From a virus, in the IMG/VR virus record IMGVR_UViG_3300042879_002939, positions 1-42,076 of that record: a DNA stretch of 42,076 bases; one strand, 5' to 3'. Position numbers and translations under genes: made by a program. Positions 8,178 through 34,719 of this stretch are shown in pieces (positions within the stretch are counted from its first letter, which is position 1; every line of letters begins with the position of its first letter). The notes under the pieces are model-generated. The model was not told the DNA's origin and made no database searches. It was given only the letters and a program-made list of their open reading frames with translations.

Positions 8178-9590
8178 TCAGGCGAACAGGTCGGTGATGT
8201 AGGTGTTCACCAGGTGGGAGCGGAAGGTGACCCGCTCGGCAGGGAACGGCGGGGTGAAGTCGAAGTCGAAGAACACCTGGCCGTTGCTGATGCTCACGGG
8301 GGTGTTGAGCTCAGGGTCCACCCAGACGTCGCCGCCGAGGATGGCGCCGCGCGCCTTGAGGCTGCGCAGGTACTCCCGCACCGACTCCTGCACCTCCTCG
8401 AGGTAGGTGGCGGTGATGCAGCGATCGACGGCCCACAGGTGGCCGCGGAGGATCGACTCGTTGATCATGTCCGCCGTGCGCCGCACCGAGAGGAAGGCGT
8501 ACTTCGGATCCATCGCTAGGGTGCGGTTGCCCCAGAGGCGGAAGCCCTGCTCGCGGATGATCGTGGCGATCTTCTGCTCGTTGAGCAGGTTGGCGCGGGA
8601 GGTGTAATCGCCGAGCGCGAAGTCGATCGCGCGGGCGGTGCCCTCGATGCCGTTGATCTCGTTGTTGGAGGGGCTCCACCAGAAGCCCTTCTCGTTGTCG
8701 ACCTTGTTGATCAGGCCGGCGACAGCGGAGCTCGCGGGAATGCTGGCCCCGTCGCTCAACACCCAGGGGTCGACCACGTAGATGCGATCGGAGCCGAAGT
8801 CATCGGCGATCTGGATCGCGGCTGCGTCGGTGGTGTTGGGACCGTCGGCGACGATCACCGCGCGCAGGCGCTGCGCGATGCCGACCATCTCGGCCAGCAC
8901 CTCGGAGCGGACGGCGCCACGGGTGACCGCGCCGGCCACCGCCTGCACGCCGCCTGCAGGGGGCGCAGCGATCGCGATGGTGGGGTCGGTGGCGTAACCC
9001 TTGCCCGGGCTGGTGATGGTGATGCTCACCACCTTGCCGGCGTTCGCTCCGGTGCCGAGCACCGCAGCAGCGGTAGCGCCAGAGCCGCCGCCGCCGGTGA
9101 TGGTCACAGCCGGGGCGGTGGTGTAACCGCTGCCCTGGGTGGTGACGGCGATCGAGAGGATGCCGTTGCTGGTGCGCTGATGCGTGAAGCCGGGGGCGAT
9201 GAGGATGCGTGGCGCAAAGCCGACGGCGTTCTCGGCCGCCAGGAACGCATGCACGCCCTCATAGGCGCCGGTTCCGTTGTCGATGCCGCCGCGCACGTTG
9301 TCGATGGTGGCGGCTTCAGTGCCCTCCTCCTCGACACGGATCATCACGACGACAGCGCCGGCCTGGTCGTAGATCAGATCGAGCGCCGGCTGCAGCGTGC
9401 CTGCCTCGCCGAGGCCGGCCATCTCACTGCGGCGCGTGATGAGCACCGGGGTGTTGATCGGGAACTTCAGCTCGTCTGCATCGGGCGCAGTGCCGACGAT
9501 GCCGATCACACTGGATCGAACGGTCTGGATTGGGCGAGCCCCAGTGTCGATCTGGAGCACCTCCACACCATGGAGGAAGGTCGTGGTCAT
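8178..9590 (-). CDS. FI: tail sheath protein with inserted beta-rich domain
   Basis: A 470-residue P2 FI-like contractile sheath protein. N-terminal conserved block: HGVEVLQIDTGARPI then SVIGIVGTAP. C-terminal conserved block: FVDP-type strand (YVVDPWV), GFRLWGNRTLA and EYLRSLKARGAILGGDVW. After APRILIAPGF the P2 sequence would run straight into the LRAVIVADGP region, but here about 85 residues (143-227) are inserted. They contain two related repeats, GSGYTTAPAVTITGGGG and GKGYATDPTIAIAAPP. That repeat type is also seen in surface-exposed phage proteins, so the insert may decorate the outside of the sheath. Confidence 0.95.
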   Translation of the reverse strand: MTTTFLHGVEVLQIDTGARPIQTVRSSVIGIVGTAPDADELKFPINTPVLITRRSEMAGLGEAGTLQPALDLIYDQAGAVVVMIRVEEEGTEAATIDNVRGGIDNGTGAYEGVHAFLAAENAVGFAPRILIAPGFTHQRTSNGILSIAVTTQGSGYTTAPAVTITGGGGSGATAAAVLGTGANAGKVVSITITSPGKGYATDPTIAIAAPPAGGVQAVAGAVTRGAVRSEVLAEMVGIAQRLRAVIVADGPNTTDAAAIQIADDFGSDRIYVVDPWVLSDGASIPASSAVAGLINKVDNEKGFWWSPSNNEINGIEGTARAIDFALGDYTSRANLLNEQKIATIIREQGFRLWGNRTLAMDPKYAFLSVRRTADMINESILRGHLWAVDRCITATYLEEVQESVREYLRSLKARGAILGGDVWVDPELNTPVSISNGQVFFDFDFTPPFPAERVTFRSHLVNTYITDLFA

Positions 9591-28955: not shown

Positions 28956-29316
28956 CGAACCCGGGAACGAACTCCCGCCGACAGGTAGGAGCATCCTGCC
29001 AGGGCATCAGCACCATCGTGCCCGGCGATACCTTCACCACCGACACGATGTTCTGCCCCGGTGAGGCGTCGATCCACGACCACACCAGCGCATCGCCCCA
29101 CAGGATCCGCGGCTGCGACACCACCACGCCATGGAGCTGCAGCATGCTCGCCCCCGGCTGGCGCATCACCTCCAGCCCCAGCCGTTCGCTCAGCGCCCAC
29201 GCCAGCACCTGGCCGCCGCGATCCACACCATGCACGCCGACTCGATCGCGTGGGCATTGCGCAGCGATCACATCGACCGCTGCCTCCAATCCTGCCCACG
29301 TCAGCTGCAGCAGCAT
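28948..29316 (-). CDS. hypothetical protein, faint phosphoribosyltransferase-like pattern
   Basis: A 122-residue protein beginning MLLQLTWAGLEAAVDVIAAQ. The stretch VGVHGVDRGGQVLAWALSERL recalls the GVPRGG / ALSxRL pattern of type I phosphoribosyltransferases. The PRPP-binding loop with two acidic residues then TG is not seen, so it would be degenerate or unrelated. The C-terminal part (LWGDALVWSWIDA, VSPGTMVLMPWQDA) is beta-rich. The ATG at 29316 overlaps the ParB-like stop (TGATG). Confidence 0.55.
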   Translation of the reverse strand: MLLQLTWAGLEAAVDVIAAQCPRDRVGVHGVDRGGQVLAWALSERLGLEVMRQPGASMLQLHGVVVSQPRILWGDALVWSWIDASPGQNIVSVVKVSPGTMVLMPWQDAPTCRREFVPGFDD

Positions 29317-30566
29317 CAGTCCTTCCCAGGAATCCACGCCCTATTGAACGAGCCCGCGCCAGCCTGCGCTGGCATCCCTGAACGGTTCAGCAGCCGCACG
29401 ACCTCCTCGGCCTCCATCCCCAGCCGCTTGCGGATCTCGCGCTGCGGCACGCCGTCATCCACCATCGCCCGCACGATCTCCGCCATCCGCAGCACCGCAT
29501 GAACGCCCCGGGCCCGGTTGTGCCTGATCGTGCTCATCATGCGGTGCGTCGCATCGAGCCGCACCTCCACCACCGGCACCATGCCGCCGGTCAGCTTCGA
29601 CACCCGCTCATCCCCGCTCACCGTCCACCGGTGGAAGCCATCGACGATCGTGTGCTTCCCACCCTCCGCCGGCAGCACCACGATCGGCTGAGTCCACTTG
29701 TCCTCGAGGAGGCTGGTGATCAGCAGCTCCAGCTCTGGCGCCGCCACATGGTTGGGGTTCCAGGCGTTGCCGACCAGCTTCTCCCTGGGCACCCACCGCA
29801 CCTTGCTCACCGGCTGGTCCTTCACACTCACCGCTTCCCCTCCAGCGCCTTGCTCATCCATCCACTCCCTGCAGAGCGTCGCCAGGGCCTCGGGCATCCC
29901 CTCCAGCCCCCATCGCTCCTTCGCCATCCGCACCGCCGCCAGCACCGACTCGCGGTCATCCCACCGCATGTTCACGCTGAAGACGTGCCGCTCCTCCACC
30001 TCGCCGCTCTCGTCCTCGGCCGTCGTTCCATCGTCCTCAGGCTCCGGCGCCGTCGCGCCCGGCTGCCCTTGCTCCGGCTCCACCCGCTCGTTCGCGTTGC
30101 TCGTGCCCTTGCCGCCCATCTCCTCGAGGCCCATCAGCTCCAGGCCATCGTGCAGCCGCTTCAGGTCATCTTCATCGAACCCCAGCACCCTCGGGTCCAG
30201 GTCGATCGCCGCCAGCTCCGTCGCCAGCAGCTCCTCATCCCACGTCGCACCCTCCGCCAGCCGGTTGTCGGCCAGCAGGTACGCGCGCCGCTGCTTCTCA
30301 TCGAGGTGGTCGAGCACCACCACCGGCAACTCGGCCAGGCCCAGCAGCTGCGCCGCCTGCAGCCGCCCATGGCCCGCCAGGATCCCGTCCGCGCTGTCCA
30401 CCAGGATCGGCGCCGTGAAGCCGAACTCGCGGATGCTCGCCGCGATCTGCTCCACCTGCCGTTCCGAATGAATCCGCGCGTTGTTGGCATAGGGCTTCAG
30501 CCGATCCAGCGGCCACATCTCCAGCCGCTTCGCCATCGCAGGAATGCTCTCGGTCATGCCGCCCAT
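29316..30566 (-). CDS. protein with two ParB/Srx domains
   Basis: The protein (416 residues from ATG 30566) has an N-terminal ParB domain: WPLDRLKPYANNARIHSER, FGFTAPILVD, GILAGHGRLQAA. The linker is acidic and Gln/Glu-rich. A second ParB-like domain follows (about residues 265-400): NAWNPNHVAAPELELLI, HTIVDGFHRWTVS, then ATHRMMSTIRHNRARG and a helix-turn-helix-like tail (GVPQREIRKRLGMEAEEVVRLL). Phage ParB-like proteins near terminases usually end in a methyltransferase; here a second ParB takes that place. The ATGs at 30557 and 30536 are other possible starts. Confidence 0.85.
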   Translation of the reverse strand: MGGMTESIPAMAKRLEMWPLDRLKPYANNARIHSERQVEQIAASIREFGFTAPILVDSADGILAGHGRLQAAQLLGLAELPVVVLDHLDEKQRRAYLLADNRLAEGATWDEELLATELAAIDLDPRVLGFDEDDLKRLHDGLELMGLEEMGGKGTSNANERVEPEQGQPGATAPEPEDDGTTAEDESGEVEERHVFSVNMRWDDRESVLAAVRMAKERWGLEGMPEALATLCREWMDEQGAGGEAVSVKDQPVSKVRWVPREKLVGNAWNPNHVAAPELELLITSLLEDKWTQPIVVLPAEGGKHTIVDGFHRWTVSGDERVSKLTGGMVPVVEVRLDATHRMMSTIRHNRARGVHAVLRMAEIVRAMVDDGVPQREIRKRLGMEAEEVVRLLNRSGMPAQAGAGSFNRAWIPGKD

Positions 30567-30765
30567 CAGGCCATCGCAACCATCGTCGCGCAACCGGGCC
30601 GCCGCATACCGGCCGCTACTTCCTGATCAATTTCTGCCCCAGATCGCCTCAGGGCTTTTCGCAATAAGGATCGCACTTTGAGAAAGCTTGTCCCTGACTG
30701 GCTTTAGCAACCCCACAAAATCGCTGTCTCTAGCGAAAAATCGCGAGTCGCGGACCCGCAGGGGG
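30567..30765. other. 200-bp intergenic region with small palindromes
   Basis: No gene is visible. It holds CGCGA-G-TCGCG (a perfect 11-bp palindrome centred near 30746), GCGA-AAAA-TCGC just before it, and TTAGCAACC at 30704-30712, repeated at 30766-30774 just outside. No convincing sigma-70 promoter or terminator was found. It could hold an operator or ParB-type binding site for the adjacent gene product. Confidence 0.35.
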
Positions 30766-30990
30766 TTAGCAACCAGGAGGACCCAAAGGGTGGGGGGTGG
30801 TTGCGGAGTGGTTGCGGTGAGGGGGTTGGCGCATGGCCCAGACGGTGGCTGCACGCTGTGTGGCGTAGGCCTGGAGGAGCTGCCTGCAGATGCGCTGAAG
30901 CACAGCGATGTCTGTGGTCTGGTCGATGGCTCGACTGAAGCGCTCCACCTCGAACTGCTGAGCAGGTGTGAGTGCGAGGGGATCAGGCAC
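30766..30990 (-). CDS. small protein, weakly NblA-like
   Basis: This 74-residue protein from GTG 30990 has AGGGGG 7 bases upstream. Its core is LTPAQQFEVERFSRAIDQTT then VLQRICRQLLQAYATQRAAT. Cyanobacterial NblA proteins, small adaptors that steer phycobilisomes to ClpC protease, share a short helical fold and an N-terminal LSLEQQFxxRSF pattern. The likeness is limited and unproven; a generic helical cyanophage protein is equally possible. The tail is basic and Pro/His-rich. It overlaps the gpZ-like gene by 8 bp. Confidence 0.55.
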   Translation of the reverse strand: MPDPLALTPAQQFEVERFSRAIDQTTDIAVLQRICRQLLQAYATQRAATVWAMRQPPHRNHSATTPHPLGPPGC

Positions 30991-31540
30991 GACCGTACCC
31001 CCTGCCCATGGCGCCGAGGGAACGAAGGATGCCCTTCTCGAGTGCGTCCTCGATGCGCACCTCGGTGCGTGCCTGTAGGGCTGGGGACCACTTGCCCCCG
31101 GTGTAGATGGCATGGATGGAGGGGCCGTGAATGACGTCGAGGGGCATGCGCTCCTTGTCGCGACGCTTGAAGGGCTTGCCCTTGGCGATGAAGCCCGAGC
31201 GAACAAGGGTTCGCTGTCCACGGAAGATGCTCATGCTGAGGCCCTTGGGGGTCTCCTTGGGCTTGAACTGCATGGCCGTGATGGGCTTGCGGGAGGTGGT
31301 GATCACCGCTGTCTGGCCGTCGCCGCTGACGCGAGCAGTGGGGACGTTCGCCTTGATGCGGCCGGCTGTGAGGCTGTAGCGCTGACCGATGGACTTGGCG
31401 AGGGTGGTGCGGCCTGCCTTGGCGGCATCACGGACGCCGGCTCGGATGGCCTTGGGGATGTCCTGGGAGGAGAGCCGAGCGAGGGCCTGAGCCAGCTCCT
31501 GGTCGCCGATGACGCGGGCGTTGATGTCGATGCGTGCCAT
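30983..31540 (-). CDS. minor tail protein Z-like
   Basis: The 185-residue protein matches prophage minor tail protein Z: SSQDIPKAIRAGVRDAAKAG, RTTLAKSIGQRYSLTAGRIK, KPITAMQFKPKETPKGLSM and FKRRDKERMPLDVIHGPSI. In lambda-like phages Z sits between head-joining and tail-terminator genes and helps tail completion. Here it is about 11 kb away, between the replication and ParB genes. The ATG at 31540 follows GGAGA by 5 bases; longer starts lack such a site. Confidence 0.8.
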   Translation of the reverse strand: MARIDINARVIGDQELAQALARLSSQDIPKAIRAGVRDAAKAGRTTLAKSIGQRYSLTAGRIKANVPTARVSGDGQTAVITTSRKPITAMQFKPKETPKGLSMSIFRGQRTLVRSGFIAKGKPFKRRDKERMPLDVIHGPSIHAIYTGGKWSPALQARTEVRIEDALEKGILRSLGAMGRGYGRA

Positions 31541-31612
31541 GGGGGTCTCCAGTGGGTCCATTGTCGCCGGCTTCCAACCTGACCAACCTGCCAACCTTTT
31601 TCCTACGAGAGG

Positions 31613-31667
31613 TCTACACCCCTCCTTACCCCCCTCTTACCCCCTCTCTATTCCTTTTATCTCTTTA
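31613..31667. other. G-free pyrimidine-rich tract
   Basis: Fifty-five bases on the + strand contain no G and are mostly C/T, with CTTACCCCC twice. The complementary strand is purine-rich with runs of five, six and four G. It lies between two blocks of AGGTTRG repeats and ends in a T/A-rich part (TATTCCTTTTATC). It could be an unwinding element or form an unusual structure at the putative origin. Confidence 0.4.
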
Positions 31668-31729
31668 GGTTAGAAGGTTAGTACAGGTTAGAAGAACGGT
31701 TGCAGGGCAAGGGGTTTGGGGCCCTCGCC

Positions 31730-31836
31730 AGGTTGGAAAGAGGTTGGAAAGAGGTTGGAAGGTTGGCAATCAGTCGCACTCGCTGACGCGGTGGACTCAA
31801 CCGCTTGCCAACCTGATTCCAACCTCCTTCCAACCT
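31730..31836. repeat. large inverted repeat
   Basis: Arms at 31741-31769 and 31805-31836 are near-perfect reverse complements: AGGTTGG-AA units against TTCCAACCT units, both ending in GGTTGGCAA / TTGCCAACC, around a 35-base loop. A third left-arm unit at 31730 has an exact 11-bp period. The right arm reaches the PrimPol stop codon. In RNA it would form a long hairpin, but no U-run follows, so a simple terminator is unlikely. Confidence 0.6.
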
Positions 31837-34079
31837 CAGCGGGGTTGGACGAATACCCACCTGAGCGAGCCATCGATGGTCTTGCGGGCCTTGCTCCACC
31901 CCAGTTCGCGCATGATCGAGCCCACCTGCATCTGGTCTGAACGGGTCTGGCGTTCGACGGGCTTCTGGACAGCTTCGGTGAGCAACAGCTCGCTGGTGAT
32001 GGCGCGGCTGAAGTTGTTCGGGGCCTTCAGCCATGCCTCGATGGGTTCGCGCCACGGGTTGGCGACCTGGTAGGACTCGTTCTCGCGGTTGACCTGAAGC
32101 GACAGGTCGAGGGGCAGGAAGTTGGGATCGCCAGCTCGGTAGGCATGGACGGCAGCGCTCCAGATGGCGTCGCGTTCAGCCGCAAGGGTCCCGGTGTCGA
32201 TCGGGTCGGCCTCGTTGCGGGTGCATGGGATCACCCAGAAGCGGCGGTTGCCGGTGTCATCGACGAGGAAGCCCTCCGTGCGGTTCGTCGAGCCGACGAT
32301 GATGCCGCGGCGCGGGTTGTTCTCCACGGCCTTGCCGTAGGGGGCGCGGAAGAGGTCGGACTGGGTGGTGAGGAAGGCCTTGACCTGGCCGGCGTGCTTC
32401 CGGGAGGTGACGTGATCCAGCTCAGCCCACTCCATGATCCAGGAGCGATGAAGCTTGAGAAGGTCGTCCTTGCTGGAGAGGTCGCCGAGCGAATCGGAGA
32501 AGAAGGGGCCACCTAGGACTGACCAGAACGAGCTCTTGCGGGCCCCCTGATCGCCGGAAAGGATCGTGGTGGTGTCGTGCTTCGCTCCAGGCTCGAATGC
32601 ACGGCGTACTGCGCCGATGAGGGTGCAGCGGAGCATGTGGTCGTAGAGGGTCGGCTCCCCCAGTGCGCCGTCTTCAGGCCTGAGATAGGCGGTGGCGAGC
32701 GCGTTGATGTAGGCGGGTTGGATGGTCGCTGCGACATGCTCCAGGTAGAGCGTTACCGGGTCGTAGGGGCGCTCACGGGCCACCTGAACGAGGGCATCGA
32801 TGGCCAGCTCCTTCGAGACCTTGAAGCCCTGATCCGCGAGCGAGAGGTAGAACCGCTCGGCGCCCTCCATGGCAGCACCGTCGACCTCCACCTGTTGGTG
32901 GAAGACGTTCCATCGGATGCGGTCCCCTTCCTGGGCCTGCTGGCGGAGCATGGCAAGGAGCTCACCGGCCTCAAGCTTCTGAGGCTTTGCGAAGGATGGT
33001 GCATACGCCTGCTGTGGGGCCTGCTGAGGCGAACCCTCTGGCGGCTCCGGATGGTTCGCGCGATCCCGCGACCTGGGAGGCTGAGGCAGCAGTGGGCGCG
33101 CCGCGCGGGTGTGGAAGCGGAGCCGTTCGTGGAGCTTGTCTTCGGGAGTGGATGGGGATGGCGTGCGGCCGTCTGCGCCATCGAAGCGCCGCCAGGCCTT
33201 CCGCTCATCGAAGTCCTTGGCCTTGGTCGCCGCGGCCTGGATGTGAAGGGCGAAGGCCTGTGAGGCGGTGATGTCGGGCTGATGGCCCTGTGAGCGGATC
33301 CACTCTTCGGTGCCCCGTAGATCGAGGGCGAGGCGTAGCTGGTCATCGTTCCAGCTGCCTGGGGTGCCGCCGGACTCGATGAGTTGGCGTGAGGCCTTGG
33401 AGATGAAGTCGAGCAGCGGCAGCGGCCCCGGGCCCGGCCCAGAAGGCGGGGGCAAGGGGGCGGTGCTGAGCAGTGGCGTGGGCTCGGGCTCGGGATCCTC
33501 GAGCAGCAGCTCGATGAGCTCCATGGGAGCGACGCCCAAATCCTGCTCACCGGGGCCGCGTCCCTTCAGCCAGCGGTAGCCGGTGGTCTCTGGATGGCGG
33601 CCGGCGACGACGGAGTAATGGCGCGCCCAGCGAAGATCGATCTGCTCTGCCTTGCCATCGGGGCCGAGGATCTTGGTGGGCTTGCCGGTGGCGGGGTCAG
33701 GGTCGCCTGTGTGCCAGAAGCGGCGGTTGCGAAGGGCGGGCCAGAACTGCTCGGGGACGGAGTAGATGATCTGGAAGCGCCCGTCGCGGCCTGAGGTCAT
33801 GGCCCAGGACTTGGGGAGCGAGCGGAGGGGGATGCCGAGGCGCTCCAGCTGGGCGGTGGCCGTGATGCCGTCGTGATCGACGAAGACGATGCCGCCTGAT
33901 GCGGGGCCAGCCTGAACGCCGATGGCATGTGCGCGGCCGGCGGTGATCTCGGCGGCCATGGCGGCTTTGGAGAGTGGGTTGTCGGCCCACTTCTCCTGGT
34001 AGGCGCGCTTGTTGGCGCCGACCGCGACGAATGCCCAGTGGTCTGGGAGGCGGGCGAGCTCCTGTAGCAGGTCCGCCAT
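31836..34079 (-). CDS. PrimPol - VirE-type helicase replication protein
   Basis: The 747-residue protein has an N-terminal primase-polymerase domain (residues 1-200): acidic pair in VFVDHDG (D68, D70), SGRDGRFQIIY where many family members have His, and IDLRWARHYSVVAG. A low-complexity Pro-rich linker follows. The C-terminal VirE-like ATPase has Walker A SGDQGARKSS (508-517), Walker B-like WIMEWAELD and STNRTEGF, NRRFWVIPC. Such proteins prime and unwind phage or plasmid origins. The repeat array follows its stop. Loss of the usual His is notable but seen in some relatives. Confidence 0.9.
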   Translation of the reverse strand: MADLLQELARLPDHWAFVAVGANKRAYQEKWADNPLSKAAMAAEITAGRAHAIGVQAGPASGGIVFVDHDGITATAQLERLGIPLRSLPKSWAMTSGRDGRFQIIYSVPEQFWPALRNRRFWHTGDPDPATGKPTKILGPDGKAEQIDLRWARHYSVVAGRHPETTGYRWLKGRGPGEQDLGVAPMELIELLLEDPEPEPTPLLSTAPLPPPSGPGPGPLPLLDFISKASRQLIESGGTPGSWNDDQLRLALDLRGTEEWIRSQGHQPDITASQAFALHIQAAATKAKDFDERKAWRRFDGADGRTPSPSTPEDKLHERLRFHTRAARPLLPQPPRSRDRANHPEPPEGSPQQAPQQAYAPSFAKPQKLEAGELLAMLRQQAQEGDRIRWNVFHQQVEVDGAAMEGAERFYLSLADQGFKVSKELAIDALVQVARERPYDPVTLYLEHVAATIQPAYINALATAYLRPEDGALGEPTLYDHMLRCTLIGAVRRAFEPGAKHDTTTILSGDQGARKSSFWSVLGGPFFSDSLGDLSSKDDLLKLHRSWIMEWAELDHVTSRKHAGQVKAFLTTQSDLFRAPYGKAVENNPRRGIIVGSTNRTEGFLVDDTGNRRFWVIPCTRNEADPIDTGTLAAERDAIWSAAVHAYRAGDPNFLPLDLSLQVNRENESYQVANPWREPIEAWLKAPNNFSRAITSELLLTEAVQKPVERQTRSDQMQVGSIMRELGWSKARKTIDGSLRWVFVQPR

Positions 34080-34082
34080 GCG

Positions 34083-34283
34083 TCAGCCCTGCTCGATGAG
34101 ATCGGCCATGCGCCGAAGCTCGGTCTGCACGGCGTGTGCAGTGGGCCCCGGGAGCTCGCGGAGCTGGATAGCGCGCTGCCTGAGGATCTCGCTGCTGATG
34201 CGGCGCTGGTAGCCGACGCCGGCGGCCCAGGCGACGGAATCACGGAGCTCGAGGACGGCGAGTTCAGGATCGTGTCCGCTCAT
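34083..34283 (-). CDS. hypothetical protein
   Basis: A 66-residue helical protein, MSGHDPELAVLELRDSVAWA onward, with a Gln/Arg-rich C-terminal half (QRAIQLREL, TELRRMADLI). It is not recognised. The ATG at 34283 overlaps the end of the upstream gene by ATGA and the stop is 3 bp before the PrimPol start, so it is part of the replication operon. Confidence 0.55.
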   Translation of the reverse strand: MSGHDPELAVLELRDSVAWAAGVGYQRRISSEILRQRAIQLRELPGPTAHAVQTELRRMADLIEQG

Positions 34284-34477
34284 GCGATGCGATCCGGTTG
34301 GCACTGGAATGGCCTGACGCCGATCACGTGTGAGGGGAACATCTCCTGAGCGGTGAGGAGCGCATCGGTGTCGTCTGAGGCGATCATGCCGATGCGGATC
34401 GGATCACAGCCTTGCTTGAGGGCGGTGACGGTGAAGGGGAACATCGGCGGCTGACGGCGGAACAGGCGGCGGATCAT
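34280..34477 (-). CDS. hypothetical protein
   Basis: A 65-residue basic protein, MIRRLFRRQPPMFPFTVTAL then DPIRIGMIASDDTDALLTAQ. I do not recognise it. The start at 34477 overlaps the upstream gene (34474-34719) by ATGA. An N-terminal Arg-rich stretch suggests nucleic-acid contact, but this is only composition. Confidence 0.5.
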   Translation of the reverse strand: MIRRLFRRQPPMFPFTVTALKQGCDPIRIGMIASDDTDALLTAQEMFPSHVIGVRPFQCQPDRIA

Positions 34478-34719
34478 GCTTCGGAAGTCTCCTGCTGCAG
34501 CGCGAGGTTGGCGGAGGCGATGCGATTGAAAAGGCGACGGCACTCGCGCACGGTGGCCTCGATGGCGAGGTAGCCCCAGTTGCGGAAGCGGATCTGATGC
34601 TCAGCCCAGAGCTCTGGAGACTTGGCCCAGTCGATGGCGTGCTGATCGGAGGGCGGCTCGCAGTGATGGGCGTCGCGGTAGAGGCGGCGAAGCCGGTGCA
34701 GGGCGGTCTGTGGATCCAT
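34474..34719 (-). CDS. hypothetical protein
   Basis: An 81-residue helical protein, MDPQTALHRLRRLYRDAHHC then WAEHQIRFRNWGYLAIEAT and RRLFNRIASANLALQQE. Unrecognised. It lies in the replication block, about 70 bp after the VRR-NUC gene. The longer frame to 35163 shadows the nuclease gene. Confidence 0.55.
   Translation of the reverse strand: MDPQTALHRLRRLYRDAHHCEPPSDQHAIDWAKSPELWAEHQIRFRNWGYLAIEATVRECRRLFNRIASANLALQQETSEA

Follow-up and report, generated by a model that had tools for sequence, protein, structure and literature searches.

A candidate iteron replication origin directly downstream of a cyanophage PrimPol-helicase gene, with repeats that covary with a predicted C-terminal winged helix

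The array of short repeats that lies directly after the PrimPol-helicase gene of the phage analysed here is, at a probability of about 0.84, an iteron replication origin, with the adjacent PrimPol-VapE protein as the initiator that would bind it through a C-terminal winged helix; this reading draws on sequence comparison and on analogy with known initiators. The array is almost certainly a docking site of the PrimPol-helicase, judging from the covariation between repeat letters and winged-helix residues in relatives. Its origin activity is what we infer; coevolution speaks for the binding, not for the binding serving replication, and autoregulation is a possible role of the binding.

The array and the genes around it

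The DNA analysed (the window) is a viral record 42,076 bases long. The PrimPol encoded in it shares 61.5% identity with the counterpart in Synechococcus phage S-LBS1, a 79% relative was found in a Cyanobium genome bin, and on these similarities the phage belongs with the Synechococcus/Cyanobium phages related to S-LBS1. Pfam places a PrimPol domain (PF09250) at residues 13-174 of the protein and a VapE-like helicase domain (PF05272, E 5.6e-62) at residues 475-670. Terminase genes lie a few kb from the array. A tail sheath gene (PHROG 23) at 8178-9590 indicates that the phage is contractile-tailed, whereas S-LBS1 is a siphovirus (PMC6157547), and so the replication module crosses tail types. 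The features of the region are as follows.

29316-30593: protein with a ParB_N domain (PF02195), flanked by the Neck1-type and terminase genes
30983-31540, minus strand: tail-completion/Neck1 family gene (PHROG 27), the other border of the candidate origin region
31574-31597, minus strand: iteron block 4, three AGGTTGG (31574, 31583, 31591)
31598-31666, minus strand: purine-strand tract, 81% purine, its A-rich end adjoining block 3; conserved in kind in relatives
31667-31691, plus strand: iteron block 3, three AGGTTAG (31667, 31675, 31685), adjoining the most AT-rich stretch of the region
31730-31766, plus strand: iteron block 2, four AGGTTGG (31730, 31741, 31752, 31760), forming a 29-bp inverted repeat with block 1
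31808-31836, minus strand: iteron block 1, three AGGTTGG (31808, 31819, 31830), overlapping the PrimPol stop codon
31836-34079, minus strand: PrimPol with VapE-like SF3-type helicase, putative initiator, 747 aa (Pfam)
31839-32087, minus strand: codons of residues 665-747, predicted winged helix and predicted iteron reader (model and covariation)
31863-31865, minus strand: Leu739 codon; Arg here in relatives often goes with G at iteron position 8
31890-31892, minus strand: Lys730 codon, which goes with T at iteron position 5

The start codon of the Neck1-type gene at 31540 is our choice, and the PHROG 27 match (E 4.8e-21) was obtained for the longer ORF 30983-31594. The original prediction had described 13 AGGTTRG copies with 8-11 bp spacing and a 29-bp inverted repeat, in four blocks just after the PrimPol-helicase gene, and all of this was confirmed on the sequence: the 13 copies in the array are exact matches, the spacing within blocks is 8-11 bp from start to start, the arms of the inverted repeat (31730-31758 and 31808-31836) are 90% complementary, and the minus-strand gene ends in a stop codon (31836-31838) that shares one base with the last repeat. 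The four blocks do not strictly alternate in orientation as had been stated, their order being -, +, +, -. The whole window contains 26 copies of AGGTTRG, 13 of them at 31574-31836 and the other 13 scattered over 41.8 kb, against 3.96 ± 2.13 in dinucleotide shuffles (maximum 11). A single 300-bp interval holds 13 copies, while 200 mononucleotide shuffles yielded at most 3 per 300 bp; with one mismatch allowed, the best other 300 bp of the window held 5 sites compared to 14 at the array, and a second cluster is thus absent from the window. Equal density of the motif elsewhere, which had been named as a reason to doubt the origin, was therefore not found. The AT-rich stretch beside block 3 has about 40% GC in a 66% GC genome and is a candidate melting site. 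Rfam and tRNA scans gave no matches.

The proposal of a replication origin is supported by the array and its conservation, while the cumulative GC-skew minimum (30730) lies about 0.85 kb from the nearest repeat, in a region where the flanking genes are co-directional. The skew switches (30600-30760) where the structural gene block begins, some 1 kb away from the array, and GC skew was for this reason not accepted as showing exactly where the origin lies. Averaged over 30 relatives with long flanks, the skew changed sign 1-1.5 kb beyond the gene end; its minimum lay 0.85-1.9 kb beyond that end in about half of them and far off in the others. Such offset profiles would fit a nearby origin, but transcription or the composition of the module could also give rise to them.

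Arrays and purine tracts in relatives

Scans of sequence collections gathered several hundred relatives of the PrimPol, and the array survey was performed on 181 deduplicated relatives from the first four scans that had a complete gene end and downstream DNA. Most of these 181 carry a repeat array directly after the PrimPol gene. The repeat unit is lineage-specific (AGGTTGGAA, AGGTTGGCAA, AGGTTGGGAC, AGGTAGGGCA, AGGTGGGGCA, AGGTAGGAAC, AGGTCGGATC, TAGGACG and others) and follows the general form AGGTxGGyyy, with about 6-18 units per locus, while the number and orientation of blocks vary widely; several relatives also have a short inverted pair of iterons around the stop codon. Thus, where the replication protein is present the region is conserved in kind, with letters that vary by lineage, which answers the second doubt attached to the prediction. 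At least five copies of one 7-mer were found in 76 of 181 downstream intervals compared to 162 of 9,893 background intervals. By 7-mer copy count alone, only half of the loci exceed 95% of their own background intervals, because many arrays are degenerate.

In S-LBS1, an AGGTTRGGCA array occupies the same place after the PrimPol gene and is the only array in that genome; it is unannotated in the GenBank record, and a term search of the text of the S-LBS1 paper (PMC6157547) found no mention of repeats or of an origin of replication. The end of the S-LBS1 record (L085, MG271909) repeats an inner part of its own array (about 34270-34394 and 34517-34641), which has the look of either an artefact of assembly at the repeats or a true duplication.

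A blind search of a viral collection with the array core CYAACCTTCYAACCTAAA returned 12 matches, three of which had only two sites and look like chance. Clusters of 8-9 sites were found only on contigs carrying a VapE-type gene or on pieces of such a phage. They came from close relatives, from L478, or from a single phage present in L480, L484 and L486. The VapE-type gene of L478 is 29% identical and ends just before the array, while in the phage seen three times it ends about 2 kb from the array; in L486, a AGGTTAGACG array (about 2080-2450) lies between replication genes and HNH/terminase-like genes. Arrays of their own were also observed in Marinobacter phage PS3 (GGGGTGACC), Rhodobacter phage RcAqua (AGGGTGAGA) and Pseudomonas phage LPPA36 (GTCCCA), at loci L472, L474 and L475, where the repeats follow a VapE-type primase gene and a 7-mer occurs in 8-9 copies. 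Phage S-2L, checked among other phages with VapE-type primases, showed no clear array.

The purine-strand tract, a candidate unwinding or priming segment, lies between two oppositely facing iteron blocks. Among 129 relatives, the strongest purine tract within 400 bp exceeded the 99th percentile of background in 78%. Whether the purines are on one gene strand or the other, the iterons at the 5' end of the purine strand mostly have one and the same orientation, and the module made up of iterons and tract has flipped no fewer than 12 times on the tree. With these repeated flips, the module acts as a single element that does not depend on the gene, as would be expected of an origin core more than of a promoter or terminator. 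A helical phasing in the spacing of the tract-flanking blocks was considered and rejected, the histogram being broad.

Covariation with the predicted C-terminal winged helix

In order to locate the part of the protein that goes with the repeat letters, pairwise motif distance among relatives was compared with protein identity in successive segments, with overall identity controlled. A clear negative partial correlation (about -0.3) was found only in the last segments (residues 661-740), with values elsewhere ranging from -0.16, in a segment overlapping 661-740, to +0.24. With the final motifs, the partial correlation was -0.456 for residues 665-747 and 0.008 for residues 600-660, and for the ORF flanking the array on its far side it was 0.109, an approximate control since this ORF was picked mechanically. 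The lack of association for the far-side ORF argues against mere linkage. On these correlations, the array type tracks only the last ~85 residues, and neither the rest of the enzyme nor the gene beyond the array. A structure model built from a 59-sequence alignment (mean pLDDT 82.7) has helices at residues 677-685, 696-704 and 713-725 and wing strands at 729-735 and 738-744, and residues 677-744 are accordingly predicted to form a winged helix of three helices and a two-stranded wing. The best PDB fold match of the whole model was the PriRep1-dsDNA structure 7pds, which was also found by sequence. A structure prediction made without an alignment was discarded (pLDDT 35.8).

At the residue level, independent pairs were counted on a tree built from residues 1-630 only, and all 532 variable columns were tested. 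Arg730 versus any other residue, scored against a purine at iteron position 5, gave 12 same and 0 opposite in 16 independent pairs, the best of the 532 columns (p 0.0005 for that column). In an earlier column scan, residue 730 had scored 10 against 0 for 20 pairs; a score of at least 4 was reached by 11 columns, every one of them within residues 651-747. Loci with Arg730 have A (32) or G (15) and never T at position 5, as counted after five out-of-register loci had been corrected by hand, while Lys730 loci have T in 68 cases, A in 3, G in 2 and C in 2, and T is found in all eight loci with Gln, Ala or Ser. The five corrected loci (L214, L195, L190, L201 and L171) carry TAGGACG and had been misregistered by one base in the EM motif inference; the register was corrected after L195, L171 and L190 had been read, and was checked by a count that uses no motif inference. 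This count gave 56 purine, 0 T and 4 undecided for Arg730, and 95 T, 2 purine and 8 undecided for the other residues. In a held-out test on later-fetched loci with unseen C-termini, 22 of 22 Arg730 loci had a purine at position 5, and Lys730 loci had T in 31 of 37 decided cases (6 purine; 8 more undecided). Across these sequences, the rule is firm for Arg, and for Lys it is good but not absolute.

A second association links Arg739 with G at position 8 (8.4 same, 0 opposite, 12 pairs). All 38 loci with G at this position have Arg739; an exception to the rule is the ACG-tailed subgroup, where Arg739 occurs with A and the wing has a one-residue gap. S-LBS1 (Lys730, Arg739, AGGTTAGGCA) fits both rules together, and the far relative L486 (Lys, AGGTTAGACG) fits the residue-730 rule; L478 is ambiguous owing to an insertion in its wing. 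We infer that the PrimPol's own winged helix binds the iterons, a reading strongly supported by this coevolution. The original prediction had noted that the motif matches no familiar iteron, which is explained by repeat letters that change by lineage together with the C-terminal winged helix.

Natural chimeras point the same way. The genes of L257 and L252 align at about 90% identity until 61 bp before the end, similarity is then lost over roughly 350 bp that comprise the winged-helix end and the array, and the next gene aligns again at 80%. The two proteins differ at 0-5 residues per 50-residue block up to residue 650 and at 19 and 21 in the last two blocks, and their iterons are AGGTTGGCAAG (L257) and AGGTAGGGCAG (L252). 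Likewise, L146 and L155 show 0 differences in residues 351-700 and 11 in residues 701-747, with iterons AGGTGGGAAC and AGGTAGGAAC, respectively. Judging from these alignments, the winged helix and the array were replaced together.

Free-standing homologues of the PrimPol winged helix were also observed, as short ORFs (85-145 aa) immediately past the array (HMM E 3e-8, 7e-8 and 2e-3). They occur in L337/L339/L340, about 390-530 bases past the PrimPol stop, in L026 (8531-8830) and in L050 (7755-8192), and might be regulators that bind origins, or be left over from cassette exchange. An intein or intron in the PrimPol of L337/L339/L340 was rejected, the element being such a separate winged-helix ORF beyond the array.

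Origin model, alternatives and known systems

In the proposed mechanism, the C-terminal winged helix would bind the AGGTTRG iterons in opposed blocks flanking the purine-strand tract. By analogy with SaPI Rep and SCCmec Cch2, helicase rings would assemble at the iterons and open the AT-rich segment next to the AGGTTAG block; DNA chains would be started by the fused primase, and replication would be bidirectional.

The array might instead be an operator or terminator by which the PrimPol, or some other protein, controls its own operon or the late operon next to it, with no need for an origin role. Its place at the boundary of the replication gene and the structural genes would suit such a site, as would the inverted iteron pair around the stop codon in several relatives, and initiators often autoregulate. 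However, neither a sigma-70-like promoter nor an intrinsic terminator was found at 31400-32000, the array lies downstream and not upstream of the initiator gene, and a promoter or terminator would not easily tolerate the repeated flipping of the core; we consider this explanation unlikely. The adjacent array and C-terminal codons do recombine together, but it is very improbable that the association reflects genetic linkage alone, since the gene on the other side is about equally close and lacks the association, and the match of a single residue to a single base recurs in many independent backgrounds.

The strand also folds unusually well (z -6.4), and in plasmid pRN1 a large stem-loop is found downstream of the PrimPol-helicase gene, a plan that its authors extend to similar proteins (PMC4234260), so that the stem-loop could be the functional element and the repeats merely what forms the stem. 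Yet a long inverted repeat follows from opposed iterons, and block number and orientation vary among relatives while the letters track the winged helix, which leaves this possibility with very little probability. A packaging site (cos/pac) for the terminase is extremely improbable: although terminase genes lie only a few kb off in the window and the S-LBS1 record starts with terminase genes and ends with the array, the termini of S-LBS1 map to 25,643, far from its array (PMC6157547), and the array coevolves with the PrimPol winged helix at the residue level.

The alpha protein of phage P4, a fused primase-helicase like the present protein, has a C-terminal origin-binding domain and binds iterons, and P4 has a second, separate iteron site (crr) besides ori. 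It differs in its Toprim-type primase and in these two sites, since only a single cluster is present in the window and in S-LBS1. P4 alpha has been compared with pRN1 (PMC4234260), whose ORF904 in the Sulfolobus plasmid resembles the present protein in its AEP PrimPol, SF3 helicase and C-terminal winged helix and in having the origin downstream. That origin is a 100-nt stem-loop downstream of the gene and lacks iterons (PMC4234260), and the present locus is not of this type, as iterons are present and their block layout varies.

Closest in plan are SaPI Rep/PriRep and SCCmec Cch2 of Staphylococcus, in which the initiator helicase gene is directly followed by short iterons; SaPI Rep and Cch2 bind these through their C-terminal domain (PMC7581432). 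The present locus likewise has clustered short repeats downstream of the initiator gene and a VapE-like AAA+/SF3-type core, and differs in the PrimPol fused to the helicase, the purine-strand tract, its occurrence in cyanobacterial phages and the residue-level covariation over many lineages. In the PLE satellites of Vibrio, the 3' end of repA and the origin covary and are swapped as a module, and origin-swapping was tested (PMC8263062). The exchange of initiator end and origin is thus shared, whereas PLE initiators are of the unrelated RepA_N family and use semi-palindromic iterons of about 30 bp; with a PrimPol/VapE protein and units of 7-11 bp, the present locus is no RepA_N replicon. The plan of an initiator helicase with downstream iterons bound by a C-terminal domain is therefore already known from SaPI Rep and Cch2. 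Its occurrence in cyanophages, the variety of repeat units, the module with the purine tract and the covariation of residues with bases are new, and our search of open-licence papers found no prior description of them.

A broader proposal is offered tentatively, as somewhat more apt to fail than to hold: competition over origin recognition, with superinfecting relatives, satellites or origin-directed nucleases, may have produced a large number of origin-compatibility groups, in which residue 730 reads base 5, residue 739 helps to read base 8, the winged helix and origin are exchanged as one cassette, and the lone winged-helix proteins (L337/L339/L340, L026 and L050) act on origins.

Overall, the array offers a testable origin for a cyanophage group that is widespread in fresh water and the sea, and for which we found no origin described, and it conflicts with the proposal that proteins combining PrimPol, helicase and winged helix assemble on stem-loops (PMC4234260). 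With it, the question of how initiator specificity evolves becomes a definite prediction that pairs a single amino acid with a single base in hundreds of natural variants. If the reading is true, origins and incompatibility groups would be readable from metagenomic phage sequence.
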